A stretch of 64,000 nucleotides of DNA from Mycobacterium parmense. Its GTDB lineage: Bacteria; Actinomycetota; Actinomycetes; Mycobacteriales; Mycobacteriaceae. Shown here piece by piece: positions 1-64,000 of the stretch. The position numbers were made by a program, and so were the translations under genes. The notes beneath the pieces were generated by a model, which worked only from the letters and a program-made list of their open reading frames with translations, did not search any database and was not told the origin of the DNA. Every line of letters begins with the position of its first letter. Position 1 is the first letter of the stretch. The stretch is taken from positions 1,922,001 to 1,986,000 of the forward strand of contig NZ_AP022614.1 in NCBI RefSeq assembly GCF_010730575.1, read 5' to 3'.

Positions 1-206
1 AACTTCTCGGAGAACCGGGCCGCCAGGTTCGGGTGACGGACGCCCACCGCCTGCACCGCGTCGCGCAGGCGATGCCTGTCGAGCCGGCCGCTCAACGCGA
101 TCTGAAGCTGCACCGCGTACACGTCGTCGTCCCCGTGCGCGGTGCTGGCATGGAAGAGCAGCCCCTGCTGTAGGGGCGTCAGCGGTAGGACGTCAGCTAT
201 CCGCAT
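1..206 (-). CDS. NRPS, second subunit (N-terminal part only)
   Basis: Only the first 68 or so codons are in the window. The start ATG lies inside the last codons of the upstream NRPS gene (14-base overlap), so the two are translationally coupled. The protein begins [20 protein letters not shown], the typical first motif (C1) of a condensation domain. Because the preceding protein ends in an epimerisation domain, this should be a DCL-type condensation domain that accepts a D-aminoacyl chain. It would add the second residue of the lipopeptide. Its substrate cannot be read because the adenylation domain is outside the window. The gene is cut by the window edge and is not evidently broken. Confidence 0.9.
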
Positions 207-3200
207 ACTGCCGCTGCAACTCGTCGATCTGCTGCTGGGTGAGGCCGGCAGCGATATCCGAAGGTGTCAACCCGCCCCCGCCGCCGCGCACATGCGCACA
301 GATGCCGGCCAGGGCGTCGAACCACAATCGGCTCAACCGGCTGACCTGCGCCTCGTTCAGGGCGGAGGGCGCCCACTTCCACCCGGCGTGCAGGTAGGGG
401 CCGGTGTAGGCGTCCACCGTCGCGGCGTTGAGCTCGACGGTGTGCGCCAGCGGCATGGGCAACCGCGCGCTGGCGTCGATCAGGGACAGGCCGTCCTCGC
501 AGATCTCCCACATGTCACCGGACGCCTCGGTCCCCGCCGCTGCGCGCCCGAGATAGTTGAACGCGATCGGCGGGTCGGAGCCGTCGAGGTCGACGTCGTC
601 GTTCAGGTAGCGAAGGACGCCGTAGGTCAATCCGTCCGGCAGGGCCCGAAGCTGCTCTTTGGCGTCTTTGACCACCGCGCCCAGCCCCGCGTCACCGGCC
701 ACCACCTGAGCCCACGACAGCCCGCCGACGTCGATCGCGACGGGGTACTTGGTGGTGAACCACCCGACGGTGCGGGAGAGGTCGACGTCATCGGCCAACT
801 CCTCCTGGCGCCCGTGCCCCTCCACGTCGATCACGACCGGCGCGCCGGCGGTGCCCAGGAACTCCGCGCAGGCCAAGGCGAACGCGATCAACAGGATCTC
901 GTGGATTCCGGCGTGGAACGCGGCCGGCACCTCGCCCAGCAGCATGCGGCTCGTCTCGACGTCGAGCTGCGCGGCCAGGTTGCCGGCGCTGACGTAGGTG
1001 TCCACCGCGGGCTGCACCGCCGGCAGCGCGGAGGGCATCGCCGCGATGCGTTGCCAGGTCTCGGCCTGCCCGACGACGTCGGGGCGGTGCGCGTGCTCGG
1101 CCAGCAGCGAGGCCCACCGCGCGAACGACGTCCCCGGCGCCGGCAGCACCAGCTGCTGGCCGCCACGGTGCTGGGCCCAGGCGAGGTTGAGGTCCTCGAG
1201 CAGGATCCGCCACGACACCCCGTCAACGGCGAGGTGGTGGACGATCGCCACCAGGCGGCCCGTGGAGGCGACCCACAGCGCGCTCAGCATCACCCCGGCG
1301 GCCGGGTTCAACCGCGACCGCGCCTCGATCAGGGCCTCCTCCGAGAGCACCTGCACCGCGTGCAGGCAGTGCCGGGCGTCCACCGACCCCGGCTCGGGCA
1401 CCTGCAACGACCACGCGCCGTCGGCCCCCTCGTCGACGCGCAGCCGCAGCATCGCATGCCGATCCAACAGGGCCTGCAGCACAACCACCACGTCGGCCTC
1501 GGTCGTTCCGACGGGCGCCTGTACCACGACGGTCTGGTTGAACTGGTCGACGGGGCCGTCGATGCTGTGCAGCCAGGAGATGATCGGCGTGGGCACCACC
1601 GGGCCCACCCCCTCGTCGATCGCGTCGGCGGCACCGTCGACCACCGCGGCGACCCGGGCCAGCCGGGCCACGGTCTGCTCGACGAAGATGTCGCGCGGCC
1701 GGCACACCACCCCCGCGGCGCGCGCCCGGGCCACCACCTGCATCGACAGGATGCTGTCGCCGCCGAGCTCGAAGAACGACTCGTCGACCCCGACGCGTTC
1801 GAGCCCGAGCACCTGCGCGTAGATGCCGGCCAGGATCTCTTCCACCGCGTCGGCAGGGGGGCGATATTGCCCGCCGTCCTGGTACTCCGGCGCCGGCAGC
1901 GCGCGGGTGTCGAGCTTGCCGTTGACCGTCAGCGGCAGCGCGTCCAAAGCCACCACCGCGGCCGGGACCATGTAGGCCGGCAACCGCTCGGCCAGCGCGG
2001 TGCGGGCTGCCGCCGGGTCCGCGCCCCCGGTCACGTAACCCACCAGGCGCTTGTCGCCGGGGCGGTCCTCCCGGGCGATGACGACGGCCTGCTCGACGCC
2101 GTCGAGGGCGGCCAGTGCCGCCTGGATCTCGCCGAGCTCGATGCGGTAGCCGCGGATCTTGACCTGCTTGTCGGCGCGGCCCACGTAGCGCAGCTGCCCG
2201 TCGGCGCCCCACCACACCAGGTCTCCGGTGCGATACATGCGGGCGCCGGGCGCCCCGTACGGGCAGGCCACGAACCGCGTCGCGGACAGCCCGGCGCGAC
2301 CCACGTAGCCGTCCGCCAGACCGGCGCCGGTCACGTACAACTCGCCGACCACGCCCGCCGGCACCGGCTGCAGCCAGCCGTCGAGCACGAAGAAGCCCAG
2401 GTGGGCCAGCGGCACCCCGATGGGGCTGACGGCGGTGTCCACGTCGTCGGCGACGATCTCGCGGAAGGAGGCGTGCACCGTCGTCTCGGTGATGCCATAC
2501 ATGTTGATCAGGCGCGGTGCGGCCGGGTGGTTGTCCAGCCAGGGCCGCAGGCGCTGGGGTTCGAGCGCTTCGCCGCCGAACACCACCGCCTCGAGCGCGA
2601 GCTCCGCCCGCGGCCCGGGCTGCGCGGCGTCGGCGCTCTGCAGTGCATAGAACGCCGACGGGGTCTGGCTCAGGATCGTCACCTGCTCGGCCACCAGCAG
2701 GGCGTGCAGATCTTCCGGGGACCGCACCACGGCGTCGGGCACCACGACCACCCGCCCGCCGAACAGCAGCGCGCCCCAGATCTCCCACACCGAGAAGTCG
2801 AACGCCAGCGAGTGGCACTGCGTCCACACCTGCCCGGCCAGGCCCATGCCGGCGTCCAGGGTGGCAAGCAGCCGGGTCACGTTGCGGTGCGGGATCGCCA
2901 CCCCCTTGGGCGCGCCCGTCGTGCCCGAGGTGTAGATGATGTAGGCGACATCGTCGGGGGCCGGTCCGGGCGGCGGGGTGCCGGGGTCGCCGGCCAGCGC
3001 GGGGTCGTCGACGTCGACGACCGCCGCGGCGCATCCGTCCAGCCGGTCGGCCAGGGCGGCGGTGGTGACCGCGGCCACCGGCGCGGAATCGTCGAGCACG
3101 AACCGCATCCGCGCCGCCGGCACCGCCGGGTCGATCGGCACGTACGTCGCCCCGGTCTTCGCCACCGCGAGCATCGCCACGATCGCCTCGGCCGACCGCG

Positions 3201-4749
3201 GCAGCACCAGCGCCACCCGCTGCCCCGGGCCCACACCGCGGCCGGCCAGCAGGTTCGCCAGGCGGTTCGCCGCGCCGTCGAGCTCCGCGTACGTCAGCGA
3301 CCGTTCCTCGCACGTGACCGCCACCGACTCGGGCGTGCGCGCGGCCTGGGCGGCGAACGCCGCCGGGATCGACGTGTCCCGCGTCGCGGGCTGGATGCCC
3401 TGCGTCCGGTTGCCCCAGCCGTCGAGGCGGAGTCGCTCGCCCTCGTCCAGCACGGCGATCGACGACAACCGCCGCTGCGGATCGGCGACCATCGCCGCCA
3501 GCACCCGCTCGAGCCGTTTGGCCAGATCGGCGACTTCGAAGTTCGCCAATGGGCCGCAGGCGCCGGAGGTGCTGAGCGAAAGCTGGTCACCTGCACCGGA
3601 GAAGATCAGCCCGAAATCGCCGACCTGGCCGGGATTGGTAAAAGACGCCGACGCCTCCACCCCGGCGAAATCCATGGTCATTTTGGACGGCAGGAAATTG
3701 ACGCTCACCCTTTCGCCCGGCTGCTCCGGGCCCCGGAGGCGAGCTTTGCGCTCAAGGGCGTGCACCGGGAATCGCTGATGCTGCAGCGCTTCTCGTACCC
3801 GCATATCGACGAGCTTGCAAAAGCCGGCCACCGTGGATTCCGGGGATACCTTCAACACCAGCGGCACCATCCCGGAAACCATTCCGGGCAGCGTTTTGGA
3901 ATCCCGACGCACTCGCCTGCTGACGGGGAAGTCGAACACCACCTCCGAGCCCTCGGCGCACCATCCGCGAACCAGCAGCGCGCAGGCCGCGGTGACGAAG
4001 CTCGATTGCGGCACGTTCCAGGCACGGGACAGTTCGTGGGCTTGTCGAAGCACCGCGGGGTCCAGCCGAACGGTCGCGGACGGCAGGTAGGCGTCCCCGT
4101 CAGCCTCGGTCTGGGGCGAGCGGTTGTGCGGTCCGCTCTCCGGGGGCAGGTGCTCCGTCCAGTAGGCCCGGTCCTCGAGGTAGTCGGCGGACGCTTCGTA
4201 CTCCGACTCGCAGCGGACCAAATCCCCGAGCGTGCCGAAAAAAGCGGGAGGAATTGGCGCGCCCGATACGATTGCGGCGTAGACCGTCGCAATTCGGTGG
4301 GCGAGAAGCGTTATACCGGTACCGTCGATGACTATATGGTGAAAACACCCGAACAAATAGAATTCGTCGGACCAGGTCTGGAATAACGCATATTTGAAAA
4401 GCGGTCCGGCCGGCGACATCGGTGTGTGCTGGATCGCCAATGCCATACGCCGGGCTTCCTGAACCGGATGACGCGAGTCACTCAGGTCGTGAAACTCCAC
4501 CTCGAAATCGGGGTAATCGAGCGCCTTCTGAAAAACTCCGTCGTCCGCTTCGAAGATTGCGGCGCGGGCCGGCTCGGCCTCCTGCATCACGTGGCGAATC
4601 GCCCGCTCGAGCACGTCGCGCTCGATGGTGCCGTCGAATCGCACCAGGACGCCGAGTTGCCACTCCGTTGTGGAGTGCCCCGTTTCCTGCGCAAGCCAAA
4701 TGTCCAGCTGCCCCCGCGTCAGCGGGAGTGCCCGGTCATCACGTTCCAT
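193..4749 (-). CDS. NRPS, single module C-A-PCP-E, Thr-like specificity
   Basis: A 1518-residue nonribosomal peptide synthetase. Domains in order: condensation (about 5-440, HHIVIDG at 137-143), adenylation (about 460-960, core motif [11 protein letters not shown] near 606), carrier protein (GGDSILSM, Ser near 997) and epimerisation (about 1055-1500, [10 protein letters not shown] near 1170). Aligning the A-domain pocket by eye gives the ten-letter code D-F-W-S-V-G-M-V-H-K. This is one residue (N to S) from the common Thr codes, so Thr or allo-Thr epimerised to the D form is inferred. As the first module after mbtH, its condensation domain should take the fatty acyl chain made by the PKS. The start is the ATG five bases after the mbtH stop. 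GPL synthetases of M. smegmatis and M. avium activate Phe before Thr, so a Thr-first single-module subunit is unusual. Upstream codons in the same frame overlap mbtH and were excluded. Confidence 0.93.
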
Positions 4750-4754
4750 CCGGT

Positions 4755-4985
4755 TTACCTGTCCAGACCCTGACCCGCTGCCAACCTTTCGCGCAGACTC
4801 CTCGGCCTGATATCGGTCCAGTTCTGTTCGATGTAGTCCAGGCACGCCGCGCGGTCCGTTTCGCCATACGCCACTCGCCAGCCGGCGGGAACATCGGCGA
4901 AGGCAGGCCACAGGCTGTGCTGTTCCTCGTTATTGACCAAGACGAAAAAACTGCCCTCGTCATCGTCGAACGGGTTGATGCTCAC
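4755..4985 (-). CDS. mbtH: MbtH-like protein, NRPS chaperone
   Basis: A 76-residue MbtH-family protein, the small cofactor that binds NRPS adenylation domains and is needed for their folding and activity. It begins [14 protein letters not shown] and carries the family signature (EEQHSLWP, then PAGWRV and the C-terminal [10 protein letters not shown]). The GTG start is chosen because MbtH proteins begin at SINPFDD and a GGAG ribosome-binding site lies five bases before it. An ATG at 5012 would add nine residues (MSSRWSGDA) with no ribosome site. The gene leads the operon mbtH-NRPS-NRPS with a five-base gap. Its promoter region, including the KstR-like palindrome at 5016-5029, is duplicated upstream of the PKS. 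Confidence 0.93.
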
Positions 4986-5015
4986 CGCGTCTCCAGACCA
5001 TCTACTCGACATGGG

Positions 5016-5029
5016 TGTAACAGGTTTTA
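5016..5029. promoter_or_regulatory. KstR-like palindromic operator upstream of mbtH-NRPS
   Basis: TGTAACAGGTTTTA fits TNNAACNNGTTNNA on both strands, the published consensus for the mycobacterial TetR regulator KstR. On the minus strand a TATGGT that could be a -10 element lies directly upstream, so a bound protein would cover the transcription start. The match is by eye. Other TetR-family regulators with similar sites are possible. Confidence 0.5.
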
Positions 5030-5724
5030 AACCATACTGGAGCCCGACATATGTTGTCTAAGCCTTCGCGGAATTCGAGGGTCGGAGCGGATCTGCCGGC
5101 ACCGCCGCATCGGGATGCCCGACGGGGCGGACGTTAGGTACGGTCTGCGCTGTCAGGCCCCCATCCGCAGTTTGCTGAAGGCCGTGCCGGCCGTCCGGAG
5201 GCGGGGACCGAACACCCGCCACAGCGGGCGGCGATTGCGGAGACGCCGCCCGATCGATCGCCGGGTGCCGGGTTGCTTTTCGTCGAGGCCCTCGGCCCCC
5301 GCGACGCGATGTCGGGCCGCGGCCCCGGGTGATCGGGCGGCTTGCCGCCCCGCCTACCGGCGGTCGGCCGCCGCGACGACGACGGCCACCCGGGCTCGAC
5401 CAGCCCGCCCGCGCCGGCCCGGGAACCCGAACCGATCCGGCACGCGAGTTGCCGCGCGGCGCCGCGACGACGTCGTCTGCCCGCCCCGGCACCGCGTGTC
5501 GCCGGGTTTGCCGGCAGGCGGTTGCCTGCCCGGCGGCGACGGCGAACGAAGGCCGCAATCCGGGCGAAGACCTTATTTCGCGGCCTCCAACCGGAGTAAA
5601 ACGCCGTCCTTTGAGATCGCAAACTTCGACGCTAGTGTGGACGCGACGGCTATCCGGCGTTCGTGATTCAACGACACCATGCCACAAAACATCGGCGAAA
5701 CAGATCTGGTTGAGGCGACACAAA
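5030..5724. other. Divergent intergenic region, mbtH and methyltransferase
   Basis: About 700 bases between the mbtH operator and the plus-strand methyltransferase. The first 40 bases belong to the duplicated mbtH/PKS promoter block. The middle (about 5100-5560) is very GC-rich, with long open frames that have no recognisable protein and look like compositional artefacts. Nothing else is recognised except the promoter-like sequence at 5611-5638. Confidence 0.6.
5611..5638 (+). promoter_or_regulatory. Possible promoter of the lipid methyltransferase
   Basis: TTGAGA and TAGTGT are separated by 16 bases and lie about 87 bases before the methyltransferase start. They resemble sigma-70 type -35 and -10 elements. 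Weak evidence, as no repeat or experiment supports it. Confidence 0.3.
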
Positions 5725-6579
5725 ATGGACCAACTCAGTGAACCATCGGCGCAGGCCGAATCGGCAGGCGATTCACCGGTGGCAATGTCGGCGCACCTGG
5801 CCGACGACCTGCTGTCCACCACCGCCACCGGATGGCGCAGTTTTTATGATTCACTGAGCCGGCGTTTGGAGGACGTCGGAGTCGCCGATTCGTCATTCTT
5901 CCTCAATTACGGATACCTGCCGATCGATTCCAACAACGACTCCGCGTTCGTCATCCGCGACGGCACCTTCAACGCCAACTCCGTCCGGCTGGTGTTCGAG
6001 GTCGTCGGACCGGTCGACCTCAACGACCGCACGGTGGTCGAAATTGGCTGCGGCCGGGGGGGCAACAGCGCCCAGGTCGCCGAGAAATTCAGTGCCCGGG
6101 TAACCGGCATCGACATGTCAGCGGAGGCCATCGCCTTCTGCCGTCGCACGCACCGCGATTCGATCGACTTCCAGGTCGGCGATGCGTTGAATATTCCGCT
6201 GGCCGACGAGTTCTGCGATGCCGTCATCAACGTGGAATCGTCGCACTCCTACGGCAACCTCCCGAAATTCCTCAACGAGGTCCGCCGGATCTGCCGTCCC
6301 GGCGCCTGGTTTCTGCACACCGACTTTCTGAGCACCGACGACTGGGACTACGTGCGGGCGCGGCTGAAAGCGCTCGGCTTCGTCACCGAAACCGACCGCG
6401 ATATCACCGCCAACGTATTGGCGTCGCGCGATCAGGCGAAGGACAACTGGGCGCAGGTCTACGGCGACGGCAACGCCCGCGTGGCGAATTTCCTCGCGCT
6501 GCCCGGCTCCGCCATCTACGAGCAACTCCGGGCGGGTCTGCTGGAGTACCGGATCCTGCGTTCGCAGTTGCGCCCGTAG
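5725..6579 (+). CDS. SAM-dependent lipid O-methyltransferase (Rv2952-like)
   Basis: A 284-residue class I methyltransferase. Motif I VVEIGCGRGGNSAQ binds S-adenosylmethionine, followed by VTGIDMSAEAI. The later segment ESSHSYGNLPKFLNEVRRI with a following RPG resembles the mycobacterial phthiotriol/phenolphthiotriol dimycocerosate methyltransferase Rv2952 and relatives that methylate lipid hydroxyls. Placed between the PKS and the NRPS operon, it most plausibly methylates the hydroxyl of the PKS-made fatty acyl chain, the role of Fmt in GPL synthesis. That role is inferred from position and family. The ATG was chosen because TTGAGGCG lies upstream at a usable distance. The gene converges on the PKS with a 10-base gap. 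Confidence 0.82.
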   Translation: MDQLSEPSAQAESAGDSPVAMSAHLADDLLSTTATGWRSFYDSLSRRLEDVGVADSSFFLNYGYLPIDSNNDSAFVIRDGTFNANSVRLVFEVVGPVDLNDRTVVEIGCGRGGNSAQVAEKFSARVTGIDMSAEAIAFCRRTHRDSIDFQVGDALNIPLADEFCDAVINVESSHSYGNLPKFLNEVRRICRPGAWFLHTDFLSTDDWDYVRARLKALGFVTETDRDITANVLASRDQAKDNWAQVYGDGNARVANFLALPGSAIYEQLRAGLLEYRILRSQLRP

Positions 6580-6589
6580 CCGCCGTTCG

Positions 6590-17607
<11,018 letters not shown>

Positions 17608-17611
<4 letters not shown>

Positions 17612-40685: not shown

Positions 40686-40691
40686 ACTAGC
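40686..40691. repeat. IS target-site duplication, right copy (ACTAGC)
   Basis: Second copy of ACTAGC, joining the IS right end to the original sequence downstream of the GMC gene. Confidence 0.8.
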
Positions 40692-40695
40692 CGAT

Positions 40696-43175: not shown

Positions 43176-43282
43176 TCCCGGTAACGCCGTGACCGGTGGA
43201 CGGTCGATGGACGCCAATGAGGACGCTGGATTTTATATCAATCCGTCTCCATGTACACGCAGTTTTGGCCTACACTCTTGCG

Positions 43283-47184: not shown

Positions 47185-47501
47185 CGCAGATCTTGACCTT
47201 TCAGTTGACGAGCGCATCAGACAACGTCAGGTGCATCGGACATTATTACCGGTTCTTCGACTGCCGGCTGGGAGTCTGGCTACTGGCTTCGGGCTAATCG
47301 TTCGTCGGAAATCCGATCGCATCGGCATTCGTCGGCGACCCCGCGTTGACCTACCTCGCGCATTAGCTGCCACCAGGCCGCCAGTTACGGCATACACGAG
47401 CGGCCATTTCCAACATCGCTGAACCAATGGCTGCGAATGATACGATCGCGAATCGCCCGGACCGGGCCAGCTTTGGGCCATCACCCGATTGAGGAGCTCG
47501 A
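47185..47501. other. Divergent intergenic region, glycosyltransferase and GMC 2
   Basis: The first 35 bases next to the glycosyltransferase retain the leader (CTGCGATG and TGAAAGGTCAAGAT), after which likeness to the full leader is lost. The other end holds GAGGAG before the TTG start of the GMC gene. No gene or further motif recognised. Confidence 0.5.
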
Positions 47502-50014: not shown

Positions 50015-50095
50015 CCCCGTGCCTTCTTCTCGGTGCGCACCGGTGAAGCTTCCGGAGCGCCGACGGACGAGAATCAACAGGGTAGTGTTCCGACC

Positions 50096-53297: not shown

Positions 53298-54578
53298 TCA
53301 GCTCCTGCCGCCGGCGCGGGCGAAATCCTCCGCAAGATCGGCGGCCGCCGCGACGCTGTCGGCGGGCGTCGTCATTCGCGTGGCGAGTTCACGGGCCCGG
53401 GCCACGTACTGTGGGGCGAGGATTCGACGCAGATCCGCTACCAGCGATTTCTCGGTGGTGATCGAGAACCGCCTGGCGGTGCCGACCTTCAACCGTTTGA
53501 CCGCAGCTCCCCATATCCCCTGAACGTCAGCCATCCAAAGGATCAGCGTGGGGACCCCGGCGCGCAGGCCTGCCGCGGTCGTCCCTGCGCCACCGTGGTG
53601 CACGACGGCGCGGCAGGCCGGGAAAATCGCCGCGTAATTCACCGCGCCCACAACCTTGACGTGTTCGAAACAGTGGACGTTGCCGAAGTTAGTCCAGCCG
53701 GCGCTGACCAGCGCCCGCTCGCCCAACTGCGCGCATGCCGCCGCGATCATTCCAAGCGTCTCGGCCGGAGATTCGACCGGTATGCTGCCAAACCCGAAGA
53801 AGATCGGCGGTTTGCCGGCGGCAATCCACTTCGCGACGTCCTCGTCGGCGTCCGTCGCCAACTCCAGTGTCAGCGTGCCGACAAACGGCCGTTGGGGGAG
53901 ATTGCGCCCATTCCATTTCGCCCATTCGGCTGCCAGCCCCGGAAAGCACACCTCGTCATACGCCTGGATCTCCAGCGATCCCCGTTCGGCGATGCGGCGC
54001 GGCGCCGGACCCTTCGCCTTAGGAAGGCTGAGCTCGCGTCTCTGGGCGTCCTCGCCGCTCTTGACCCCGAGCCAAACCAGCCACTCGTATAACGTCATCG
54101 CACCCCGGATCAAAGGCGCCGGCAGCGTCGGAACAAGATGTCCGTTGACCCGAATCGGGAACCACAGCAGCGTGGCCAACGCGATGTCGCGAGACTCCGC
54201 CACATTGGTGGCGAGCTCTTGGTAGCTCATACCGGTCAGCAACAAATCGGCCCCGTCCGCCAGCGACCTCAGGGTCGTGCTCATCTCAGCCCAACACTGG
54301 ATGCCGGGCTCCCGAGCTTCGCGAAACAGCCTCTTCGCTTCCTGGATCTTCCATAAGTTGCGGAAGAACCTCGTCCAGAAGTTACGCGTCGCTTCCAGCC
54401 ACGCTTGCGTATCCGGCCCGTAGGCGGTCGCCGTCAGCCCAACCGACTCGGCAAAGTCAACCAAGTCGGGCGGGACAGCCATGTGCACATAGTGCCCTCG
54501 GTGAAGCAGCTCACGGCCTACGGCGACGCCGGGTTCGACGTCGCCGCGAGTTCCATAAAATGCGAGCACGAATTTCAT
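53298..54578 (-). CDS. MGT-family glycosyltransferase
   Basis: A 426-residue MGT-type glycosyltransferase. It starts MKFVLAFYGTRGDVEP, with FFGFGSIPVESPAET (262-276) and donor motif HHGGAGTT at 327-334. Residues 1-200 form the acceptor-binding half, where the paralogues differ most (here QAWLEATRNFWTRFFRNLW). It should add one sugar to the lipopeptide. It is the sixth MGT gene of the window, and its leader is the most complete. The sulfotransferase gene follows upstream in the same orientation. Confidence 0.9.
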   Translation of the reverse strand: MKFVLAFYGTRGDVEPGVAVGRELLHRGHYVHMAVPPDLVDFAESVGLTATAYGPDTQAWLEATRNFWTRFFRNLWKIQEAKRLFREAREPGIQCWAEMSTTLRSLADGADLLLTGMSYQELATNVAESRDIALATLLWFPIRVNGHLVPTLPAPLIRGAMTLYEWLVWLGVKSGEDAQRRELSLPKAKGPAPRRIAERGSLEIQAYDEVCFPGLAAEWAKWNGRNLPQRPFVGTLTLELATDADEDVAKWIAAGKPPIFFGFGSIPVESPAETLGMIAAACAQLGERALVSAGWTNFGNVHCFEHVKVVGAVNYAAIFPACRAVVHHGGAGTTAAGLRAGVPTLILWMADVQGIWGAAVKRLKVGTARRFSITTEKSLVADLRRILAPQYVARARELATRMTTPADSVAAAADLAEDFARAGGRS

Positions 54579-54737: not shown

Positions 54738-55712
54738 CTAAGCCCAAGTCTCGCTTCGCCGGTGAGCGATGGCGCTGACCTTGAGGAAACAGTTGACGAC
54801 CGATATCGGAACGAGCCGGTAAAATTTGTAGAGGCGGTGAAAATTGTCGAACGCAGTGCGGAAGCCTTGTTCGCTCGACCGATATGACTCGAAAACACGG
54901 TCCAGCGTGGTTTGCTCCCAGGGTTCGTCCCGCGCGGCCGCGCTCAGCGCTTCGTAAGCCGCCGGAATCCAGTCCGCACCGAAGGGCCGAGATACCGAGT
55001 CACCGTGTCGGTGGTGCCGAAGACCGGATGCAAGGAATTTCTCGATTGCATCCTCACCCCTGGTATCCAGTTCGATCGCGAGCGCCGTGGAAATCCGCTT
55101 GATCTCTCGGCGCCAATCGTCCATCAGGTTGGCGTACTCAACGAATACGCGCGGCAAGCCGCGCGTATCCCTCTCGGCCAGCAAGCTGTATTTCAGCCAC
55201 AGGGCACTCCCCAACTCCGGTGACGTCCCAGCGCTCGCCGTCAACGATTTCACGGACTCCTCGGGGTGGCGCACCGCAATCACGACCATCGGGGCGAATC
55301 CGGCCCGGCGTGCCGCCTCAAGCCACAAACCAGACAGCGCTGTGATTTTCGGGTCTTTGATCACCACGAGCGGCGCGGCCGGCAACGCTGCGAAAAATTT
55401 CCGTATTTTGGCGATCCAGGCGGCCTTCTCGGCGGCGCTGAACGCATCTTCCTCCTGCAGGCGCAAAGTCGGGTCGAACCCCGCGCTGCCGTGCCGGCGC
55501 AGGATTGCTCCGTTGAGATAGACGGCCGCGCGAGGCTCCCAAAATCCGGCAGGATCCCGCGCGGTGGCACCCAACAGCCCAGTCGGGAGCACCGCACCAC
55601 ACAACGAGAGGACCCGCGTCAACGCCGAGGTTCCGGACCGTGCAAACCCCAACACGAACAGCGCGACCGGCCGGTCCCCAGTGCCGAGCTGCCCGGCCAA
55701 ATCCATGTTCAC
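54738..55712 (-). CDS. Sulfotransferase-family protein
   Basis: A 324-residue PAPS-dependent sulfotransferase homologue. The P-loop-like 5'-phosphosulfate motif is LGFARSGTSALT at about 21-32, and VIAVRHPEESVKSL near 155 corresponds to the 3'-phosphate-binding region (Arg and Ser). KDPKITAL lies between. It would transfer sulfate to a glycan or lipid hydroxyl. Sulfated GPLs are known from some mycobacteria, so sulfation of this product is a reasonable inference. No signal peptide or membrane segment was seen, so it should act in the cytoplasm. The GTG at 55712 and ATG at 55706 are both possible starts. Confidence 0.82.
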   Translation of the reverse strand: MNMDLAGQLGTGDRPVALFVLGFARSGTSALTRVLSLCGAVLPTGLLGATARDPAGFWEPRAAVYLNGAILRRHGSAGFDPTLRLQEEDAFSAAEKAAWIAKIRKFFAALPAAPLVVIKDPKITALSGLWLEAARRAGFAPMVVIAVRHPEESVKSLTASAGTSPELGSALWLKYSLLAERDTRGLPRVFVEYANLMDDWRREIKRISTALAIELDTRGEDAIEKFLASGLRHHRHGDSVSRPFGADWIPAAYEALSAAARDEPWEQTTLDRVFESYRSSEQGFRTAFDNFHRLYKFYRLVPISVVNCFLKVSAIAHRRSETWA

Positions 55713-56196: not shown

Positions 56197-57597
56197 GTGG
56201 CGATCCGGATTCCTCGCGCACGCACAACTGCCGACGGCCACACACCCAACGGCGAAGCGAAGCCGGACAATAGGCTGGCGCTGTTGGACCAGGCGTTCTA
56301 CGCCGGGCATTGCGCTGCCGGCCAGACGGAGGTCATGCAGGTGATGTGGCTGTATGAGCGCGCCGTCGACATGAAGGCGGTCGAACGACTGCACCGGAAT
56401 CTCGGTTACACGCTGTTCGGCCGGCGGATCGAGCGGTCACCGCTGCCGTTCGGCCGGCATCGGTGGGTATTCGACAGGGCGCCGTCGGACATCGACGTCG
56501 CCGCGTGTCCACGCCCGCGGTCCGAGCTCAGCGACTGGCTTGACGAACGGTCACAAATTCCCGTTGATCCCGAAACCGGTCCCAGCTGGCATTTCGGCGT
56601 GCTGCCCCTGACGGACGGCTCGATGGCGGTCAGCTTGGTGATGTCGCACTACGTGTGCGACGGCGTCGGCGGAATCATCGCGGTGACCGAAGCGCTCATG
56701 GGCCTCACCCGCGACCTCGGGTACCCGCCGCCGCATTCCCGCAGCCGGCTGCGCGCGGTCATCGAGGACGCGGGCGAGACAGTCCGGGCCGCCCCCGAGG
56801 TGGCCCGGGCGCTGGTCGCGGGGGCGCGAATGGCCCGCAGCAACCGCGACCTCGTGTCGACCGACAAGCGACCCGCCGCCGTAACCGGGGACGGCGGCGG
56901 CGACCTGATCGTGGTTCCCGGTGTCGCCATCTACATGGATATGGGCGAATGGGACGCCCGCGCGAGGGCACTTGGCGGCACCAGCAGCACCCTGACCGCC
57001 GGGTTCACCGCGAAACTCGGGGAACATCTGGGCTTCCGGCACGGCAAGGACGGCGACGTCACCGTACAACTCCTCGTGAACAACCGTGGCGAGGGCGATA
57101 CTCGTGCGCTCGCGGTGACGTTCGTCCGCGTCAACATCGACCCGACACGGGCAACGACGGATCTCAGCGAGGCGCGAGTGGCGATCAAGCAGGCACTGAC
57201 GAGCCTGCGAGAAACGCCGGACAACTCCTCGCTGGTCGCCGCGCTGACCCCGTTCACGTCGAAGCGGACGTGGAAACGGCTGGTCGACACCGCCAACACC
57301 GACCCTGATCACCCCGTGGTGTGCTCCAACCTCGGTGAGCTCGGCCCGACCACCCGCCTCGACGGCACCGACTGCGACTACCCGTATGCGCGAGGAACGC
57401 GACAAGGCGTGACGCGACAGTGGCTCGAGCAAATAGGTGGCCAACTTCAGGTGCTGTCGCTGCGCGCGTCCGGGGTCGGCAAGGTCGCCATGACCGTCCT
57501 CGCGTATCAGCCGGGAGCCCAGAACACCAAGGCCGCCCTGCGCGAGCTGTGTGCGCGCGCACTGGCCGAGTTCGGCCTGACCGGCGAGATCGACTGA
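56197..57597 (+). CDS. PapA/condensation-type acyltransferase
   Basis: A 466-residue protein of the condensation-domain-like acyltransferase group (PapA, WS/DGAT). The catalytic HxxxDG motif is HYVCDG, His151 to Asp155, and VQLLVNNRGEGDTRAL with the later VCSNLGELGP are typical of the family's second half. It would esterify a hydroxyl of the sugar or peptide with a fatty acyl-CoA or an ACP-bound acyl chain. PapA-like genes are common in glycolipid loci. The GTG start follows GGAGG by seven bases. It is the first of a plus-strand run that continues with exporters. Confidence 0.86.
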   Translation: MAIRIPRARTTADGHTPNGEAKPDNRLALLDQAFYAGHCAAGQTEVMQVMWLYERAVDMKAVERLHRNLGYTLFGRRIERSPLPFGRHRWVFDRAPSDIDVAACPRPRSELSDWLDERSQIPVDPETGPSWHFGVLPLTDGSMAVSLVMSHYVCDGVGGIIAVTEALMGLTRDLGYPPPHSRSRLRAVIEDAGETVRAAPEVARALVAGARMARSNRDLVSTDKRPAAVTGDGGGDLIVVPGVAIYMDMGEWDARARALGGTSSTLTAGFTAKLGEHLGFRHGKDGDVTVQLLVNNRGEGDTRALAVTFVRVNIDPTRATTDLSEARVAIKQALTSLRETPDNSSLVAALTPFTSKRTWKRLVDTANTDPDHPVVCSNLGELGPTTRLDGTDCDYPYARGTRQGVTRQWLEQIGGQLQVLSLRASGVGKVAMTVLAYQPGAQNTKAALRELCARALAEFGLTGEID

Positions 57598-57688: not shown

Positions 57689-57709
57689 TTAGACTTGTGT
57701 CTGTTAGAC
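57689..57709 (+). promoter_or_regulatory. Shared promoter motif, MFS gene
   Basis: TTAGACTTGTGTCTGTTAGA follows the TTNRAC motif of the acyltransferase genes. The preceding CCGTTATT is also shared with the mmpS promoter at 59417. Confidence 0.45.
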
Positions 57710-57766
57710 GGACGGGACGACGTTCCGCTGCGACGGATTCAACGACGCAAGGGCGGCCACTGCGCA

Positions 57767-59308
57767 TTGAACGAGACAACGCACGGAATCAGCGACCCTG
57801 CGCCCGCAGAACCGATCGCTTCGCCTCATGACCTGACAACCTCCGAGGAGCGCCCGTCGACCCGCCACTTCGTCGCGGTGATCAGCGCTCTCAGCGGCAT
57901 CCAGCTGCTGGCGATGATCGACGGCACCGTCGTCATCTTCGCGCTCCCGAAGATCCAAAACGAGCTGGGCTTGTCGGATGCGATGCGGAGCTGGGTGATC
58001 ACCATCTACGTGCTGGCCTCCGGCGGCCTCATGCTCTTGGGCGGCCGTATCGGTGACACCATCGGCCACAAGCGCACTTTGATCCTCGGCGCCGCGCTGT
58101 TCACCTTCACCTCGGCGATGTGCGGCGTCGCCTGGGACGGCGGTGTGCTGGTGGCGGCCCGCCTGCTGAAGGGCGTCGCGGCCGCCTTCGTGGCACCGAC
58201 CGCTATGGCGCTGGTGGCCACGACGTTTCCCAAGGGGCCGACGCGCAACACCGCGGTGGCGGTGTTCGGCGCGATCTCCAGCGTCGGGTCGGTGGTCGGC
58301 CTTGTCGCGGGCGGGGCACTCGCCGAGGTCTCGTGGCGCCTGGCGTTCCTGGTGAACGTACCGATCGGACTGGTGGTGATCTACCTGGCCGCTACCGCGT
58401 TGCGGGAAACGAACAAAAAGCGGATGAAGCTCGACGCCGCCGGCGGTGTGCTGGCCACCCTGGCCTGCACCGCCGCGATATTCGGCTTGTCGACGGGTCC
58501 GGAGAAGGGCTGGCTGTCGACCGTCACCCTGGGTTCGGGTCTGGTGACGGTCGCGGCGTTCGCGGCGTTCATCCTCGTCGAGCGGACGGCCGAGAACCCC
58601 ATCGTGCCGCTGACGCTGTTCTTCGACCGCAACCGGTTGGCCACGTTCGCGGCCACGTTTCTCACCGGCGGGGTGACGTTCACGATGGCCGTGCTGATCG
58701 CGCTGTATGTGCAGAACGTCATGGGATATGGACCGATGCACGCAGCCATCGCGTTCGTCCCGTTCGCGTTCGCCACAGCCGTCGGTGCGGGCGTGGCCTC
58801 CCGGTTGGTGACTCGATTCCCGCCTCGCGCGTTGGTGATCACCGGCGGCATCGTCCTGTTGGGCGCCATCTCATGCGGATCCACGCTCAGCCGCGGCGCC
58901 CCTTATTTTCCCAATCTTGCGCTGCCGATCGTCGTCGCAGGTATCGGGCTCGGCATGATCAACGTCCCCTTGGGCCTCGCCCTGATCGCGAGCGTGCGCG
59001 TCGACGAACTGGGCCCCATCTCGGCGATCGCGGTGATGCTGCGGAGCCTCGCCGGGCCGCTGGTGCTCGCCGTCATCCAGGCCGCCATCACGGCGCGCAC
59101 ACTTCGCGCGGGTGGCAGCCGCGGGCCGGTGAAGGCCGTCAACGGCGCCCAGATGCACGCGCTGGAAAACGGCTTCACCTACGGCTGGGTGTGCTTGGGA
59201 GGGGTGGTCACCCTCATCGGCGCGGTCGCGCTACTCATCGGCTACACCGCTCAACAGGTGGCACGCGCCCAAGAAGTCAAGACGGCCCTCGACGTCGAGG
59301 GCCGGTAG
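57767..59308 (+). CDS. MFS transporter, DHA2/EmrB type
   Basis: A 513-residue major facilitator transporter with about 14 membrane segments. AMIDGTVVIFALPKIQNEL is the DHA2 motif (D..IVNVALP type) in the first helix and GGRIGDTIGHKRTLI is motif A after the second. Such pumps export hydrophobic drugs or lipids using the proton gradient. Standing between a PapA-like gene and mmpS-mmpL, it probably exports a lipid product or intermediate. The TTG at 57767 was preferred over the TTG at 57695, because the earlier codon falls inside the promoter motif; no strong ribosome site supports either. Confidence 0.87.
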   Translation: MNETTHGISDPAPAEPIASPHDLTTSEERPSTRHFVAVISALSGIQLLAMIDGTVVIFALPKIQNELGLSDAMRSWVITIYVLASGGLMLLGGRIGDTIGHKRTLILGAALFTFTSAMCGVAWDGGVLVAARLLKGVAAAFVAPTAMALVATTFPKGPTRNTAVAVFGAISSVGSVVGLVAGGALAEVSWRLAFLVNVPIGLVVIYLAATALRETNKKRMKLDAAGGVLATLACTAAIFGLSTGPEKGWLSTVTLGSGLVTVAAFAAFILVERTAENPIVPLTLFFDRNRLATFAATFLTGGVTFTMAVLIALYVQNVMGYGPMHAAIAFVPFAFATAVGAGVASRLVTRFPPRALVITGGIVLLGAISCGSTLSRGAPYFPNLALPIVVAGIGLGMINVPLGLALIASVRVDELGPISAIAVMLRSLAGPLVLAVIQAAITARTLRAGGSRGPVKAVNGAQMHALENGFTYGWVCLGGVVTLIGAVALLIGYTAQQVARAQEVKTALDVEGR

Positions 59309-59422
59309 CCAAGTGCTCAATTCGCCTGCAGTGGTCTCGGGTCCAGCGGCCGTAAAACCCGCTGAAAACATTCCCAAATCACGAACGATTGCTTCTGCCC
59401 TACACTATGGTTTGCTCCGTTA

Positions 59423-59443
59423 TTGGACTCGTGTTGTCTAGGG
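59423..59443 (+). promoter_or_regulatory. Shared promoter motif, mmpS-mmpL operon
   Basis: TTGGACTCGTGTTGTCTAGG with CCGTTATT just before it matches the MFS promoter. TAGGGT at 59439-59444 as -10 would start a leaderless message at the GTG at 59452. Confidence 0.45.
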
Positions 59444-59451
59444 TGGAACCT

Positions 59452-60066
59452 GTGGTCGAAGGCAGTGTGCGCGGTGCTGAGCTAGTTCAATCCGAAAGCA
59501 CCGTCGCCGGCGATCAGGCCGATGGCCAATCGGTGGGCAGCCGACCCAAACTCCTGAGGCCTATTCGACAACCTGCCGGTGCGTCCCGGCCACCGCGCGG
59601 ATCTGAAAGCCGCCGCCGAACTTTAGGACCCGCCATTTTCAGAGCCCTGAAACGCTTGTGGATTCCTTTGGTCGTGCTCGCGGTGATCGGCGCCGGCGGA
59701 GTGGCGGTGTCGCGGCTGCACGGCATCTTCGGCTCCGACAAACCAATGACCTATTCCGACACCAAAGCCGACAACACCAAACCGTTCAATCCCAAGCACC
59801 TCAGGTACGAGATCTTCGGGCCGCCGGGAACCGTGGCCGAGATCAGCTACTTCGGCGCCGACGGTGACCCCGAGCACGCTGACGGCGTGACGCTGCCGTG
59901 GTCGTTGGAGTTCCCGATCACCGCGGCGGCCGCCATCGGGAGCATCGCAGCGCAGGGAGACAGCGACAGCATCGGTTGCCGCATCTGGGTGGACGGGGTG
60001 TTGAAGGCCGAGAAGGTCACCCACGAGGTGAGCGCCTTCGCCTCCTGCATGCTGAAGGCCGCATGA
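59452..60066 (+). CDS. mmpS: MmpS-family membrane protein
   Basis: A 204-residue MmpS protein, the small periplasm-facing partner of MmpL transporters. A long polar N-terminus is followed by one membrane helix ([21 protein letters not shown]) and the MmpS domain ([20 protein letters not shown], then [11 protein letters not shown] and [20 protein letters not shown]). The N-terminal arm, about 80 residues, is longer than in MmpS4. MmpS4 is needed for GPL export in M. smegmatis. The stop overlaps the mmpL start as ATGA, so the two are translationally coupled. The start was placed seven bases after a TAGGGT box; GTG 59443 is the alternative. Confidence 0.9.
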
Positions 60067-62951
60067 GCAACCACCAACTCGAGAACACCCGACCGTTCGT
60101 GGCGCGGACGATCCAGCGGTTCTCGGTGCTCATCATCCTGGGGTGGCTGGCGATCATGGTGATCGTCACCGTCGGCGTTCCCTCGCTGGAGTTGGTCGAG
60201 AAGGAACACTCGGTGTCGCTGAATCCGACCGATGCGCCGGCTTTCAAAGCGGCGAATCGCATGAACGAGGACTTCAAGCAGACCGATCAATCCAGCTCGG
60301 GCAGCGTGGCGATGATCGTGCTGGAGGGGCAGCAACCCCTCGGGGACGCCGCGCACAACTACTACAACAACTTGATCCTGCAGCTGAAGAACGACCCCAA
60401 GCACGTGCAGCACATCCAGAATTTCTGGGGCGACGAACTCACCCGGGGCGCCGCGCAAAGCGCAGACGGCAAAGCCGCCTACGTGCAATTGACGCTCGCA
60501 GGCAATCCCGGCCAGAGCTTGGCGAACGAATCCATCGAAGCGGTTCAGCACATCGTCGCGAGGACGCCGGCCCCCCCGGGTGTCAAGGCCTACGTCACCG
60601 GACCGGCGGCAATTTCGGCAGATATGAACCGCAGTGGTGACCGGACGATCGTCACGGTCACGCTGGTGAGCGTCGCGGTCATCTTCCTCACCTTGCTCCT
60701 CGTCTATCGCTCGATAGTCACCGTGTTTCTGTTGCTGGTGATAGTCGGCATCGAACTCCAGGTGGCGCGGGGAACAGTCGCATTCCTCGGCCACCACGAG
60801 ATCATCGGGCTCACCACCTTCGCCGCCAACTTGCTCGTCTCGTTGTGCATCGCGACCGGTACCGACTACGGCATCTTCTTCATCGGCCGATACCAGGAGG
60901 CGCGCCAGGCTGGCGAGAGCCGGGAAGCGGCTTTCTACACCACCTACCGCGGCGTCGCCAAGGTGGTGCTGGGGTCCGGCCTGACGATCGCGGGAGCCGT
61001 CTTCTGCCTCGTGTTCACCCGGTTGCCGTTGTTCCACGCCATGGCCATCCCGTGTGCGGTCGGGATCCTCGTCGCCGTTGCGATCGCGCTCACCCTCGTC
61101 CCGGCGGTCATCGCCGTCGGCAGCCGAATCGGGCTGTTCGAACCCAAGCGGGTGCTCAAGGTCCGGGGGTGGCGCAGAATAGGCACCGCGATCGTCCGGT
61201 GGCCCGCCCCGATCCTCGTCGCGTCTCTGGCTGTGGCCATGCTCGGGCTGCTGACGCTGCCCGGATACAAACCGAGCTACAACGACCAGAAATACATCCC
61301 CAAAGACATTCCGGGCAACCAGGGCTTGGCGGCCGCCGGCCGGCACTTCCCGCCATCGGCGATGATGTCGCCCGAACTCCTGCTGATCGAAGCCGACCAC
61401 GACTTGCGCAATCCCGCGGACTTCCTGATCTTGGAGAAACTGGCCAAGGCGGTCCTCGCCGTTCCGGGCATCTCCAAGGTGCAGGCCGTCACCAGGCCCG
61501 AGGGAACGCCGATCGCGCACACCACCATTCCGTATCTGCTCAGCATGCAACAAGCCGGTCAGCAACAGTTCATGCATTTCCAGAAGCTACGCATGAACGA
61601 CATGCTCAAACAGGCCGAGATGATGACCGAGACGATCAACATCATGGAGCACATGTACGGCCTACTCCAGCAAATGGCCGCGACGACGCACCGCATGGTG
61701 ACCAAAACGCACGAGATGCAGGAGATCACCAACGATTTGCGGGATCACATCGCGGATTTCGAAGATTTCTGGCGACCGATCCGCAGCTACTTCTATTGGG
61801 AAAAGCACTGCTTCGACATCCCGATCTGCTTTTCCATACGATCCATTTTCGACACTCTCGACGGCGTGGACCTGGTCACCGACAAACTGCGCGACCTGGT
61901 CGGAGACCTCGATCAATTAGATGCGATCATGCCGCAGCTGCTCCTCCAGTTCCCCGAGATGATCGAGATCATGCAGAGCATGCGAACCATGATGTTCACG
62001 ATGCACAGCACGATGTCCGGGGTCTTCGGACAGATGGACGACAACAGCAGCAACTCGACCGCCATGGGGAAGGCGTTCGACACCGCGAAGAACGACGACA
62101 GCTTTTACATTCCGCCGGACGTCTTCAAGAACGCCGACTTCAAACGGGTCATAAAGATCTTCCTGTCGCCCGACGGGAAGAACGCCCGGATGCTCATCTC
62201 GCAGAAGGGCGATCCCGCGTCGCCCGAGGGCATTTCGAGGGTGGACCCGATCAAGAGCGCGGCGGCGGAAGCGCTCAAGGGGACCCCCCTGGAGGACTCC
62301 AAGATATACCTCGCGGGCACCGCGGCGCTGGTCAAAGACGTGGTGCAGGGGTCCACCTACGACCTCGCGATCGCGGTCATCGCCGCGCTGTGCCTCATCT
62401 TCGCGGTCATGTTGATCATCACCGGCAGCTTCATCGCCGCCCTGGTCATCGTCGGCACGGTGCTGGTTTCGCTCGGCGCGTCTTTCGGTTTGTCGGTGTT
62501 CGTCTGGCAGTACCTGCTGGGTACGCAGATCCACTGGGCAGTGCTGGTGATGTCGCTGATCGTGCTCTTGGCGGTGGGGTCCGACTACAACCTGCTGCTG
62601 GTTGCCCGGATGAAAGAGGAAATAGGCGCCGGTCTGAACACCGGCCTGGTGCGCGCGATGGGCGGCACCGGCAAGGTCGTCACCAACGCCGGATTGGTCT
62701 TCGCGTTCACCATGGGCTCGATGATGGTCAGCGACCTGGCCAGCATCGGGCAGGTGGGCTTGACGATCGGCCTGGGTTTGTTGTTCGACACGCTGGTGGT
62801 TCGGGCATTCATGACGCCGTCTATCGCGGCGCTGCTGGGGCGGTGGTTCTGGTGGCCGCAACGAGTTCGCCCACGGCCGGCCAGCTCGATGCTCCGGCCG
62901 ACCGGTCCCCGTCCCGTTGTGCGCGCCTTGATGCTGAGACAGCAAGGCTGA
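60063..62951 (+). CDS. mmpL: MmpL-family lipid transporter (1)
   Basis: A 962-residue RND-type MmpL transporter. It has two repeats, each a helix, a periplasmic domain and a five-helix bundle; the second periplasmic domain (about 420-760) contains a Met-rich stretch ([19 protein letters not shown]). The proton-relay Asp-Tyr pairs are present in [16 protein letters not shown] near 268 and [15 protein letters not shown] near 840. With MmpS it should carry the finished glycolipopeptide to the periplasm. The GPL locus has a similar mmpS4-mmpL4a-mmpL4b (tmtp) block. The start ATG overlaps the mmpS stop. Confidence 0.93.
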
Positions 62952-63066
62952 GCGGCGAACTGTTCGGGACGGATCGGGCAACTGTGGAAAGCATTGTGAC
63001 GCTGCGTGACGGCGAAGCGACGTCGCGTGGGGCGCGCGCAGCTGCCGCCTGCCCGTTGAGGGCCGC

Positions 63067-64000
63067 ATGAACATCGAGCAGCCTTGCCCTCCCCGCATCG
63101 CGCGGACCATCCGCAGCCTCTCGCCGCTCATCATCGTGGCGTGGGTGGCCCTGACGCTGACGGTGAGTTTCGGCGTTCCGTGGCTCGAGACGGTCGGCCG
63201 CGACCACTCCGTTCCGATGAGCCCCCGGGATGCGCCGTCGGTGCAGGCGATGACGCGCATGGGGAAGGTCTTCAAGGAATCCGATTCGGACAGTTTCGCG
63301 ATGATCGTCCTCGAGGGGCAGCAACCGCTCGGCGATGACGCCCACGCGTACTACGACACGTTGATTCGTCGGTTACGCAGCGACCGAACGCATATCGAGC
63401 ACGTGCAGGATTTGTGGGGCGACCGGCTCACGGCGGCGGGGGCGAAGAGTCCCGACGGCAAGGCCGTGTACGTCCAACTGAACCTCGCCGGCAACCAGGG
63501 CACCACGCTGGGGCAGGAGTCGGTGGCGGCGGTCCGCAACATCGTCAGCAGCCTGCCGCCGCCTCCCGGGGTCGAGGTGCACGTCACCGGCCCCTCGGCC
63601 CTGGTCGCCGACATGCAGCGCAGTGGCGACCGCTCCATCCTGAAGTTGACGCTGATCGGGGCCGTCATCATCTTCGCCGTGCTGATGTTCGTCTACCGCT
63701 CCGTGGTCACCGTGATCCTGTTGCTGCTCACGGTCGGTGTCGAACTTTTCGCGGCCCGCGGGATCGTCGCGTTCCTCGGTGACCGCAACATCGTCGTCCT
63801 CTCGACGTTCTCGATCAACCTGCTGGTCGCCCTCGCGATGGCGGCGGGAACCGATTACGGCATCTTCTTTTTCGGGCGATACCAGGAGGCGCGGCAGGCG
63901 GGCGAGGATCCGCAGACGGCCTACTACAGCACCTACCGGGGGGTCGCCCCCGTCGTCCTGGGATCGGGGTTGACCATCGCCGGGGCGATGCTGTGCCTGA
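63067..64000 (+). CDS. mmpL: MmpL-family lipid transporter (2), partial
   Basis: The first 311 codons of a second MmpL, cut by the window edge. It has the N-terminal helix [32 protein letters not shown], the periplasmic segment [20 protein letters not shown], and the first Asp-Tyr pair in [16 protein letters not shown]. It is a paralogue of the preceding gene, 115 bases downstream. Pairs of MmpL proteins behind one MmpS are the arrangement of GPL export genes. No stop codon occurs before the window ends. Confidence 0.92.

Follow-up and report, generated by a model that had tools for sequence, protein, structure and literature searches.

In nontuberculous mycobacteria colony type, phage sensitivity and contact with the host are governed by surface lipopeptides, few of whose structures have been tied to genes. 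The second glycopeptidolipid (GPL) locus of Mycobacterium abscessus, MAB_4689c-4705c, makes GL8P, whose peptide was found by NMR to be T-A-F-I-Y-L-T-T, with leucine at position 6 where threonine had been predicted (PMC11978893, in its accessible text). In the accessible text of two further papers the GPL of M. xenopi is a lipotetrapeptide, Ser-Ser-Phe-aThr (aThr, allo-threonine), ending in D-allo-Thr (PMC7261415), and the lipopentapeptide L5P of M. avium subsp. paratuberculosis (MAP) carries a C-terminal methyl ester (PMC8103206). Here we describe a locus of M. parmense found in a window of 64,000 nucleotides (NZ_AP022614.1, positions 1,922,001 to 1,986,000; G000:C1:1922001-1986000 of the complete 5.95-Mb chromosome). 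With a probability of roughly 0.6, the region serves to make and export a GPL-family surface glyco-lipotetrapeptide with a core of its own. The locus is ordinary in kind; what is new, as far as open-licence papers show, is the predicted core (aThr-Thr-Leu-aThr), the end group and the pentose cassette, predicted for a species group for which the papers we searched gave no description of such lipids. Searches of the open-licence PMC literature, outside supplementary Data S1 of PMC11978893 (predicted mycobacterial products), brought up neither a comparable locus nor a comparable product.

The initial annotation treated the window as the whole locus. When about 40 kb were added on each side and genes were called with a codon script, which makes start positions approximate, the locus proved to be truncated at both edges and to span approximately -19329..65982 in window coordinates, or about 85 kb. 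The left extension of 19.3 kb holds a 4186-aa non-ribosomal peptide synthetase (NRPS2, with three of the four adenylation domains), a 218-aa methyltransferase of the PEMT/ICMT family and a 2084-aa single-module polyketide synthase (PKS) of the methyl-branch type, PKS2084; on the right the second MmpL gene overruns the edge by 2 kb and ends at 65982. Size does not set this locus apart, as four other genomes of the genus have relatives of it that measure some 50 to 90 kb. The flanks are bioA and bioF, the latter slightly below its NCBIfam cut-off. In the interval -23990..69529 bioA is parted from bioF and bioB by the locus, and in the M. bohemicum version a bioA homolog likewise lies past the MmpL genes.

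Peptide assembly line and residue codes

The assembly line consists of two NRPSs, built from condensation (C), adenylation (A), thiolation (T) and epimerisation (E) domains, and an MbtH-like protein:

1..206, minus strand: N-terminus of NRPS2 (4186 aa; gene -12354..206), predicted C-A(Thr)-T-C-A(Leu)-T-C-A(Thr)-T-E-C-T
193..4749, minus strand: NRPS1, 1518 aa, predicted C-A(Thr, DFWSVGMVH)-T-E (Pfam; E by TIGR01720; motifs)
4800..5030, minus strand: MbtH-like protein (Pfam, 99 bits)

The order of NRPS2 comes likewise from domain search and motifs; the four A domains are divided 1+3 between the two proteins, and domain search found no reductase on either. Nine pocket positions per A domain, in what we take to be GrsA numbering, were read by motif anchors, or by eye where the motifs misread a domain. 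Modules 1, 2 and 4 have the code DFWSVGMVH and module 3 has DFWTLGAVY. These codes were calibrated on the NRPSs of the GL8P-type locus in genomes G092 and G088. The eight A domains of G088 read DFWSVGMVH, DVWSVAAVY, DVWTVVAMC, DFWT--VMW (with two positions of this fourth code unread), DAESELAIC, DFWTLGAVY, DFWSVGMVH and DFWSVGMVH, and they align in order with the GL8P peptide, which makes DFWTLGAVY the code of position 6 (Leu) and DFWSVGMVH that of Thr. The modules of the M. parmense locus therefore read Thr-Thr-Leu-Thr, and an E domain follows the first and the fourth of them, which suggests the predicted core acyl-D-aThr-L-Thr-L-Leu-D-aThr. The calibration fits the published correction of the automatic prediction at GL8P position 6. 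A point that counts against the assignment is that it presupposes in G088 a locus of the same type as that of M. abscessus GL8P, to which it was matched by the eight codes and by gene content. What is said here and below of the genes present, the order of domains, the identity of codes to those of GL8P-type modules and co-occurrence was read from the DNA itself.

The Leu code is identical in five loci of this kind (those of M. parmense, G172, G097, G098 and G082), while the position 2 code, read by eye, differs in G172, G098 and G082; G083 has the same NRPS2 layout with other codes at positions 2 and 3. We rejected an assignment of G083 to M. xenopi, since its gyrA intein, compared by eye, is unlike the Mxe intein. 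Four other genomes of the genus, including M. bohemicum, have the same NRPS2 layout and C-T tail with an NRPS1 of 1512-1528 aa, that of M. bohemicum being recognised from its size and 74% identity alone. Among solved A domains the closest to module 3 comes from linear gramicidin synthase and does not settle the residue.

Two other products have to be weighed against this core. A serine-containing GPL of the M. xenopi type, acyl-Ser-Ser-Phe-aThr, would have equal length and D-allo-Thr at position 4 (PMC7261415, accessible text), but codes 1, 2 and 4 are the GL8P Thr code and code 3 is the GL8P Leu code, where Ser and Phe would be needed; NRPS1 moreover has an E domain, yet the M. xenopi lipid is described there as starting with an L residue. 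We rejected this product on the codes and regard it as quite improbable. That the locus is a plain C-type GPL locus enlarged by tailoring genes is very improbable indeed, although the canonical GPL locus of G092 shares with ours MbtH, MmpS/MmpL (58-68% identity), an epimerase (78-79%), a TylF-type methyltransferase (71%), Atf-like genes (56-57%) and Gap (39-40%). The NRPS features that define the C-type are absent, for neither NRPS has a reductase, the pocket codes are different and the four A domains are arranged 1+3. Elsewhere in the genome Condensation matches reveal just two further NRPS clusters, one a 10403-aa synthetase and the other a group of three frames (627-638 kb). The former (G000:C1:4683682-4714893; L098, L100, L099) is a lipopeptide-type NRPS with eight A domains, MbtH ahead of it and a 1030-aa protein behind, and near it lies a 2109-aa single-module PKS of the order KS-AT-DH-ER-KR-ACP. 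The initial annotation had called the core that of GPL synthesis, which holds for transport, MbtH and the glycosyl- and acetyltransferases but fails for the assembly line, with its 1+3 A domains, Thr-Thr-Leu-Thr code, C-T end and lack of a reductase.

For the predicted aThr-Thr-Leu-aThr core, a long acyl chain from the bimodular PKS (below) would be condensed onto Thr by the first C domain of NRPS1, which would epimerise that residue to D-allo-Thr; NRPS2 would then add L-Thr, L-Leu and Thr and epimerise the last, giving acyl-D-aThr-L-Thr-L-Leu-D-aThr. This chemistry, the order of all its steps, the methyl ester, the identity of the pentose and the sulfation are what we infer from the genes.

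Proposed chain exit by a C-T tail

NRPS2 ends in a C-T pair, beyond which, outside the window, stands a methyltransferase gene:

L004:6981-7637, plus strand: PEMT/ICMT-like methyltransferase, left of NRPS2

The tail is kept in M. parmense, G172, G097, G098, G082, G083 and G088, and its HHIxLDG and GG[DN]SL motifs are intact in all seven. The PEMT/ICMT-like gene is convergent with the tail and adjoins it in M. parmense, G097, G082 and G088, and is separated from it by one gene in G172 and G098; it is absent from the stretches read of G083 (60 kb) and of the two canonical GPL loci (80 kb each). In our genus sample of 198 genomes, a PEMT homolog lay within 3 kb of the C-T tail in 60 of 70 tails among the matches listed (those reaching query position 522 or more, from 63 genomes; shorter matches were dropped). 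Long reductase-ended frames had such a neighbour within 3 kb in 1 of 52 cases among the matches listed and within 4 kb, the limit set for these controls, in 2 of 52; the controls, drawn from 118 sampled genomes, were listed reductase matches in frames of more than 2000 aa, and their count used a trimmed list of PEMT matches, listed down to about E 5e-78, so that weaker homologs in control genomes could go uncounted. The GL8P-type NRPS of G092 (L109:9212-17314) has no C-T tail, its frame running into an ABC-transporter ATPase domain.

We tentatively propose, as a possible rather than a probable generalisation, that the C-T tail and the convergent ICMT-like methyltransferase are a dedicated exit of mycobacterial lipopeptide NRPSs, in which the C domain, adding no residue, hands the completed chain on to a last carrier or releases it from one, and a methyl ester cap replaces a thioesterase or reductase, and that the M. 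parmense locus is one of many users, combining it with on-lipid pentose remodelling by GMC and Gfo/Idh pairs that would work like DprE1/DprE2. The chain, with no reductase or thioesterase to release it, would leave via the terminal C-T pair, and the membrane methyltransferase would cap its C-terminus. The association of tail and methyltransferase gene suggests a C-terminal methyl ester in the product of this locus, like that of MAP L5P. The published GL8P formulas equal, by arithmetic, stearoyl-TAFIY(OMe)LTT free acid plus the named sugars, the acyl group and one CH2, and the accessible text of PMC11978893 names no C-terminal methyl ester. The association also offers a rule, open to testing, by which sequence alone would predict how a mycobacterial lipopeptide ends at its C-terminus.

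Several observations pull the other way. The extra CH2 of GL8P has explanations other than a methyl ester. Ten of the 70 tails have no near PEMT homolog among the matches listed, seven with no match on the contig and three with a match 46-54 kb away; G083 has the tail and no PEMT gene within the 60 kb read. The PEMT family itself occurs in 165 of the 198 genomes, often remote from NRPSs, and M. parmense has a second copy at 187962. C domains as a rule require an amine as acceptor, and the serine motif of the T domain is kept in the seven tails; both points favour an unseen adenylation enzyme that would act in trans to add a fifth residue or an amine, giving a pentapeptide or an amide. This we consider improbable, since the GL8P-type NRPS pair has the same tail with eight A domains and an octapeptide product, and BLASTP found no A-domain-like protein besides the two NRPSs among the 86 proteins of the 142-kb M. 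parmense region.

Sugar cassette, acyl groups and export

Six genes of the window form the sugar cassette:

32030..33031, minus strand: UXS-like short-chain dehydrogenase/reductase (SDR), putative NDP-uronate decarboxylase, motif STSEVFG (NCBIfam, PDB relatives)
33079..34461, minus strand: NDP-sugar 6-dehydrogenase (UGD), top PDB match CalS8 (Pfam, NCBIfam, PDB)
35917..36918, minus strand: Gfo/Idh/MocA oxidoreductase 1; PDB relatives include sugar 3-ketoreductase (Pfam, PDB)
37929..39569, plus strand: GMC oxidoreductase 1, top PDB match FAD glucose dehydrogenase (Pfam, PDB)
40696..41685, minus strand: Gfo/Idh/MocA oxidoreductase 2 (Pfam)
47502..49151, plus strand: GMC oxidoreductase 2 (Pfam)

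The closest solved relative of UGD in a PDB search is CalS8 (366 bits; the next scores 246), and the top solved match of the SDR is an unassigned epimerase/dehydratase (182 bits), the best named ones being UDP-glucuronate decarboxylases (147 bits). By sequence, both enzymes of a putative NDP-xylose pathway are present and adjacent. A scan of species genomes gave 59 UGD loci, 56 of them mycobacterial (among others in M. bohemicum, M. interjectum, M. palustre, M. elephantis, M. celatum and M. litorale), and in 57 of the 59 no more than 500 bases separate UXS from UGD; in L077 the two are further apart and L094 is cut by a contig end. Flanks of up to 10 kb contain a GMC gene in 43 and a Gfo gene in 37 of these loci. 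In the genus sample UGD occurs in 35 and GMC in 50 of the 198 genomes, with 34 shared (Fisher P 7.6e-25, ignoring relatedness), and among 16 C-T frames of 4.1-4.4k aa, counting that of G156 (4385, with one inner stop), UGD accompanies 15 (Fisher P 3.7e-12, ignoring relatedness) and GMC all 16.

UGD-UXS, GMC and Gfo/Idh are thus probably a recurrent pentose cassette, in keeping with the uronate- or pentose-derived sugar that had been predicted from the UGD gene and its decarboxylase-like neighbour. The likeness of GMC to FAD glucose dehydrogenase and of Gfo1 to, among others, sugar 3-ketoreductase in turn leads us to read GMC and Gfo/Idh as what may be a sugar redox-remodelling pair. On the other side, GMC is not confined to genomes with UGD. 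It occurs in 16 that lack UGD, among them G036 and G080, where it shares a contig with an Mps-type pair ending in a reductase and lies some 25 and 42 kb from that pair; in G083 the NRPS2 layout comes with GMC but with neither UGD nor PEMT. NCBIfam was discarded as a guide to the UGD substrate, as the scores do not single out UDP-glucose and reach no equivalog cut-off. Those scores, the unassigned top match of the SDR and the genomes with GMC alone would suit a uronic acid or some other sugar in place of a pentose, which is on balance unlikely given the CalS8 match and the UXS-like partner adjoining UGD in nearly every locus.

The genes for acyl chains and for acyl and sulfate transfer are:

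L004:671-6925, plus strand: PKS2084, outside the window, left of NRPS2
6590..17611, minus strand: bimodular PKS, 3673 aa, both acyltransferase (AT) domains presumably malonyl-type (HAFH), paralog of the genome's own trehalose polyphleate (TPP)-type PKS
22666..24879, plus strand: AT3-SGNH O-acyltransferase a (Pfam)
27460..29667, plus strand: AT3-SGNH O-acyltransferase b (Pfam)
29784..31979, plus strand: AT3-SGNH O-acyltransferase c (Pfam)
44542..45753, minus strand: Atf-like acyltransferase, 403 aa (identity to canonical GPL locus genes)
54738..55712, minus strand: putative PAPS-type sulfotransferase (fold prediction)
56197..57597, plus strand: PapA-like acyltransferase (weak Pfam match)

The AT motifs are HAFH in the bimodular PKS and VASH in PKS2084, which we take to mean malonyl and methylmalonyl types. 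The initial annotation counted the bimodular PKS in the GPL core. We rejected this: the family is present in 137 of the 198 genomes, and the protein is 75.5% identical over 3701 aa to a second copy at 548-572 kb of the same genome, whose neighbours agree in order and size with the TPP set (named from position and BLASTP, after the M. smegmatis TPP locus as given in the accessible text of PMC10465359). A PUFA-synthase-like pair and Rml genes are found next to the MmpL genes of G172 and, judged from the order and size of the genes, of G098 and G082, from which the lipid module appears to be exchangeable within this locus family. The G172 pair (L017 7049-18000 and L018 1-7182; the first protein KS-AT-ACPx4-KR-DH) comes with a PfaD-like protein; at its own MmpL genes the window lacks such a pair and has the TPP-type PKS in its stead. 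Two results do not favour the proposed acyl supply: no PKS2084 homolog lies in the 90 kb read of M. bohemicum, and Pfam found no acyl-AMP ligase among the window proteins scanned.

A further acyltransferase, a sulfotransferase and a PapA-like enzyme had each been named from the sequence. The first, the 403-aa protein, has no credible Pfam match and gains its identity from 56-57% identity to two genes of the G092 canonical locus taken for Atf; the PapA-like protein scores 20 against a Pfam cut-off of 23.6 and is retained as a weak match. The sulfotransferase scores 26.1 bits against a cut-off of 27, and no solved relative was found by sequence alone; its AF2 model (7 sequences, mean pLDDT 75.5) returned only sulfotransferases at Foldseek ranks 1-18 (E 4.6e-6 to 6.6e-4, with modest TM of 0.30-0.47 by query length), and an RSGTS P-loop motif is invariant in the seven sequences. 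On this model it is possible that the product is sulfated. A relative occurs in the GL8P-type locus, and, against sulfation, the structure of GL8P in the accessible text of PMC11978893 names no sulfate.

The remaining genes of the window are:

5785..6579, plus strand: class I methyltransferase, distantly Fmt/Mtf2-like, with 31% identity to the presumed Fmt of a canonical locus (Pfam/NCBIfam, BLASTP identity)
18017..19285, minus strand: MGT1 glycosyltransferase (Pfam)
19706..20464, plus strand: rhamnosyl O-methyltransferase family (above NCBIfam cut-off)
20498..21256, minus strand: methyltransferase, Methyltransf_24 (Pfam)
21312..22442, minus strand: methyltransferase, TylF/Methyltransf_24-like (Pfam)
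24881..25957, plus strand: SDR1, epimerase, 78-79% to the SDR of a canonical GPL locus (NCBIfam, identity)
25941..27221, minus strand: MGT2 glycosyltransferase (Pfam)
34631..35911, minus strand: MGT3 glycosyltransferase (Pfam)
36955..37767, minus strand: TylF-family sugar O-methyltransferase, 71% to a canonical-locus gene (Pfam, identity)
42210..43175, plus strand: methyltransferase, no homolog in eight compared regions (Pfam)
43196..44497, plus strand: GT4 glycosyltransferase (Pfam)
45910..47217, minus strand: MGT4 glycosyltransferase (Pfam)
49229..50014, plus strand: alpha/beta hydrolase (Pfam)
50033..50875, plus strand: Gap/SfLAP membrane protein, 39-40% to Gap of a canonical locus (Pfam, identity)
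51073..51780, plus strand: probable seventh methyltransferase, weak (methyltransferase matches at E 0.0045-0.006)
51795..53063, minus strand: MGT5 glycosyltransferase (Pfam)
53298..54578, minus strand: MGT6 glycosyltransferase (Pfam)
57695..59308, plus strand: MFS transporter (Pfam/NCBIfam)
59389..60066, plus strand: MmpS4-like (Pfam, identity)
60063..62951, plus strand: MmpL4a-like (Pfam, identity)
63067..64000, plus strand: MmpL4b-like, gene running on to 65982 (Pfam, identity)

Nearly all of the inventory first drawn up is borne out by Pfam and NCBIfam: mbtH, NRPS, bimodular PKS, SfLAP/Gap protein and MmpS-MmpL-MmpL, six MGT-type (EryCIII-like) glycosyltransferases and one GT4, three AT3-SGNH acyltransferases, two GMC and two Gfo/Idh/MocA enzymes, and the UDP-sugar dehydrogenase with its UXS-like SDR neighbour. 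The six methyltransferases stand by Pfam and the probable seventh has to be added to them. A 173-aa transposase/integrase-core fragment (rve) lies in 39566-44497, near the lowest GC of the window (0.545 at 42-44 kb), where GT4 and the methyltransferase without a homolog in the compared regions are found; this stretch is possibly a late insertion. Past bioA, at a distance of 18-29 kb to the right of the locus, come further SfLAP and transport genes: a second SfLAP protein (L006, window 84398-85198), and MmpS followed by a 965-aa protein taken for MmpL (91749-95047).

In the later steps of the proposed pathway, MGT enzymes would glycosylate Thr hydroxyls with deoxyhexoses, the epimerase, rhamnosyl-O-methyltransferase and TylF-type O-methyltransferase acting as in GPL synthesis, and UGD with UXS would supply at least one pentose; GMC (FAD) would oxidise a sugar to the keto-sugar, which Gfo/Idh (NAD) would re-reduce. 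The AT3-SGNH, Atf-like and PapA-like enzymes would add acyl groups, one of them probably methyl-branched and made by PKS2084, the sulfotransferase may attach sulfate, and MmpS-MmpL-MmpL with Gap would export the product.

Comparison with described systems

The GL8P locus (G088; also G092, with a broken NRPS end) shares with that of M. parmense MbtH, two NRPSs, the last ending in E-C-T (in G088), the convergent PEMT/ICMT-like gene, MGTs, Gap, sulfotransferase- and PapA-like genes, MmpS-MmpL-MmpL and identical Thr and Leu codes. It differs in having eight residues and A domains against four, and has no UGD, UXS, GMC, Gfo, AT3-SGNH or TPP-type PKS gene within the 60 kb read. The C-type GPL loci (M. 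smegmatis, M. avium and the first locus of M. abscessus), which we take to be those of G092 and G046, have in common with it the transport genes, MbtH and Gtf, and in G092 also Atf-, TylF-methyltransferase-, epimerase- and Gap-like genes; identities of MmpS4, MmpL4a and MmpL4b are 58, 68 and 65% to G092 and 53, 68 and 74% to G046. In contrast, Mps1/Mps2 with a reductase and the Phe-aThr-Ala-alaninol core have no counterpart in the M. parmense locus, and the two 80-kb stretches read contain no PEMT, UGD, UXS, GMC or Gfo gene. A 3-hydroxy/methoxy C28-30 acyl chain is a further mark of the C-type. The initial annotation was right that the tailoring set is unlike known GPL clusters, in that it matches neither of these canonical loci. 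In the wide sense of the GPL family the locus does belong, since NRPS, MbtH, MGTs and MmpS/MmpL stand together in it.

The M. xenopi GPL resembles the predicted product in its four residues and its D-allo-Thr end, with which the number of A domains and the E domain behind the last of the four would be compatible, and is set apart, by its described structure rather than by genes, as Ser-Ser-Phe-aThr against aThr-Thr-Leu-aThr. MAP L5P, likened in the same way by the structure in the accessible text of PMC8103206, is also a linear mycobacterial lipopeptide, with the same C-terminal methyl ester as the one predicted here but a different peptide. The TPP locus (MSMEG_0408-0412) has a like bimodular PKS of about 3700 aa, whereas that of the window adjoins mbtH-NRPS and is without the papA3/mmpL10/fadD23/pE set. 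The NDP-pentose pathway of calicheamicin, of which we take CalS9 to be a further member, provides the closest solved relative of UGD, CalS8, alongside a UXS-like partner; to such a pathway the M. parmense locus adds GPL-type MGT glycosyltransferases as well as the GMC and Gfo redox enzymes.

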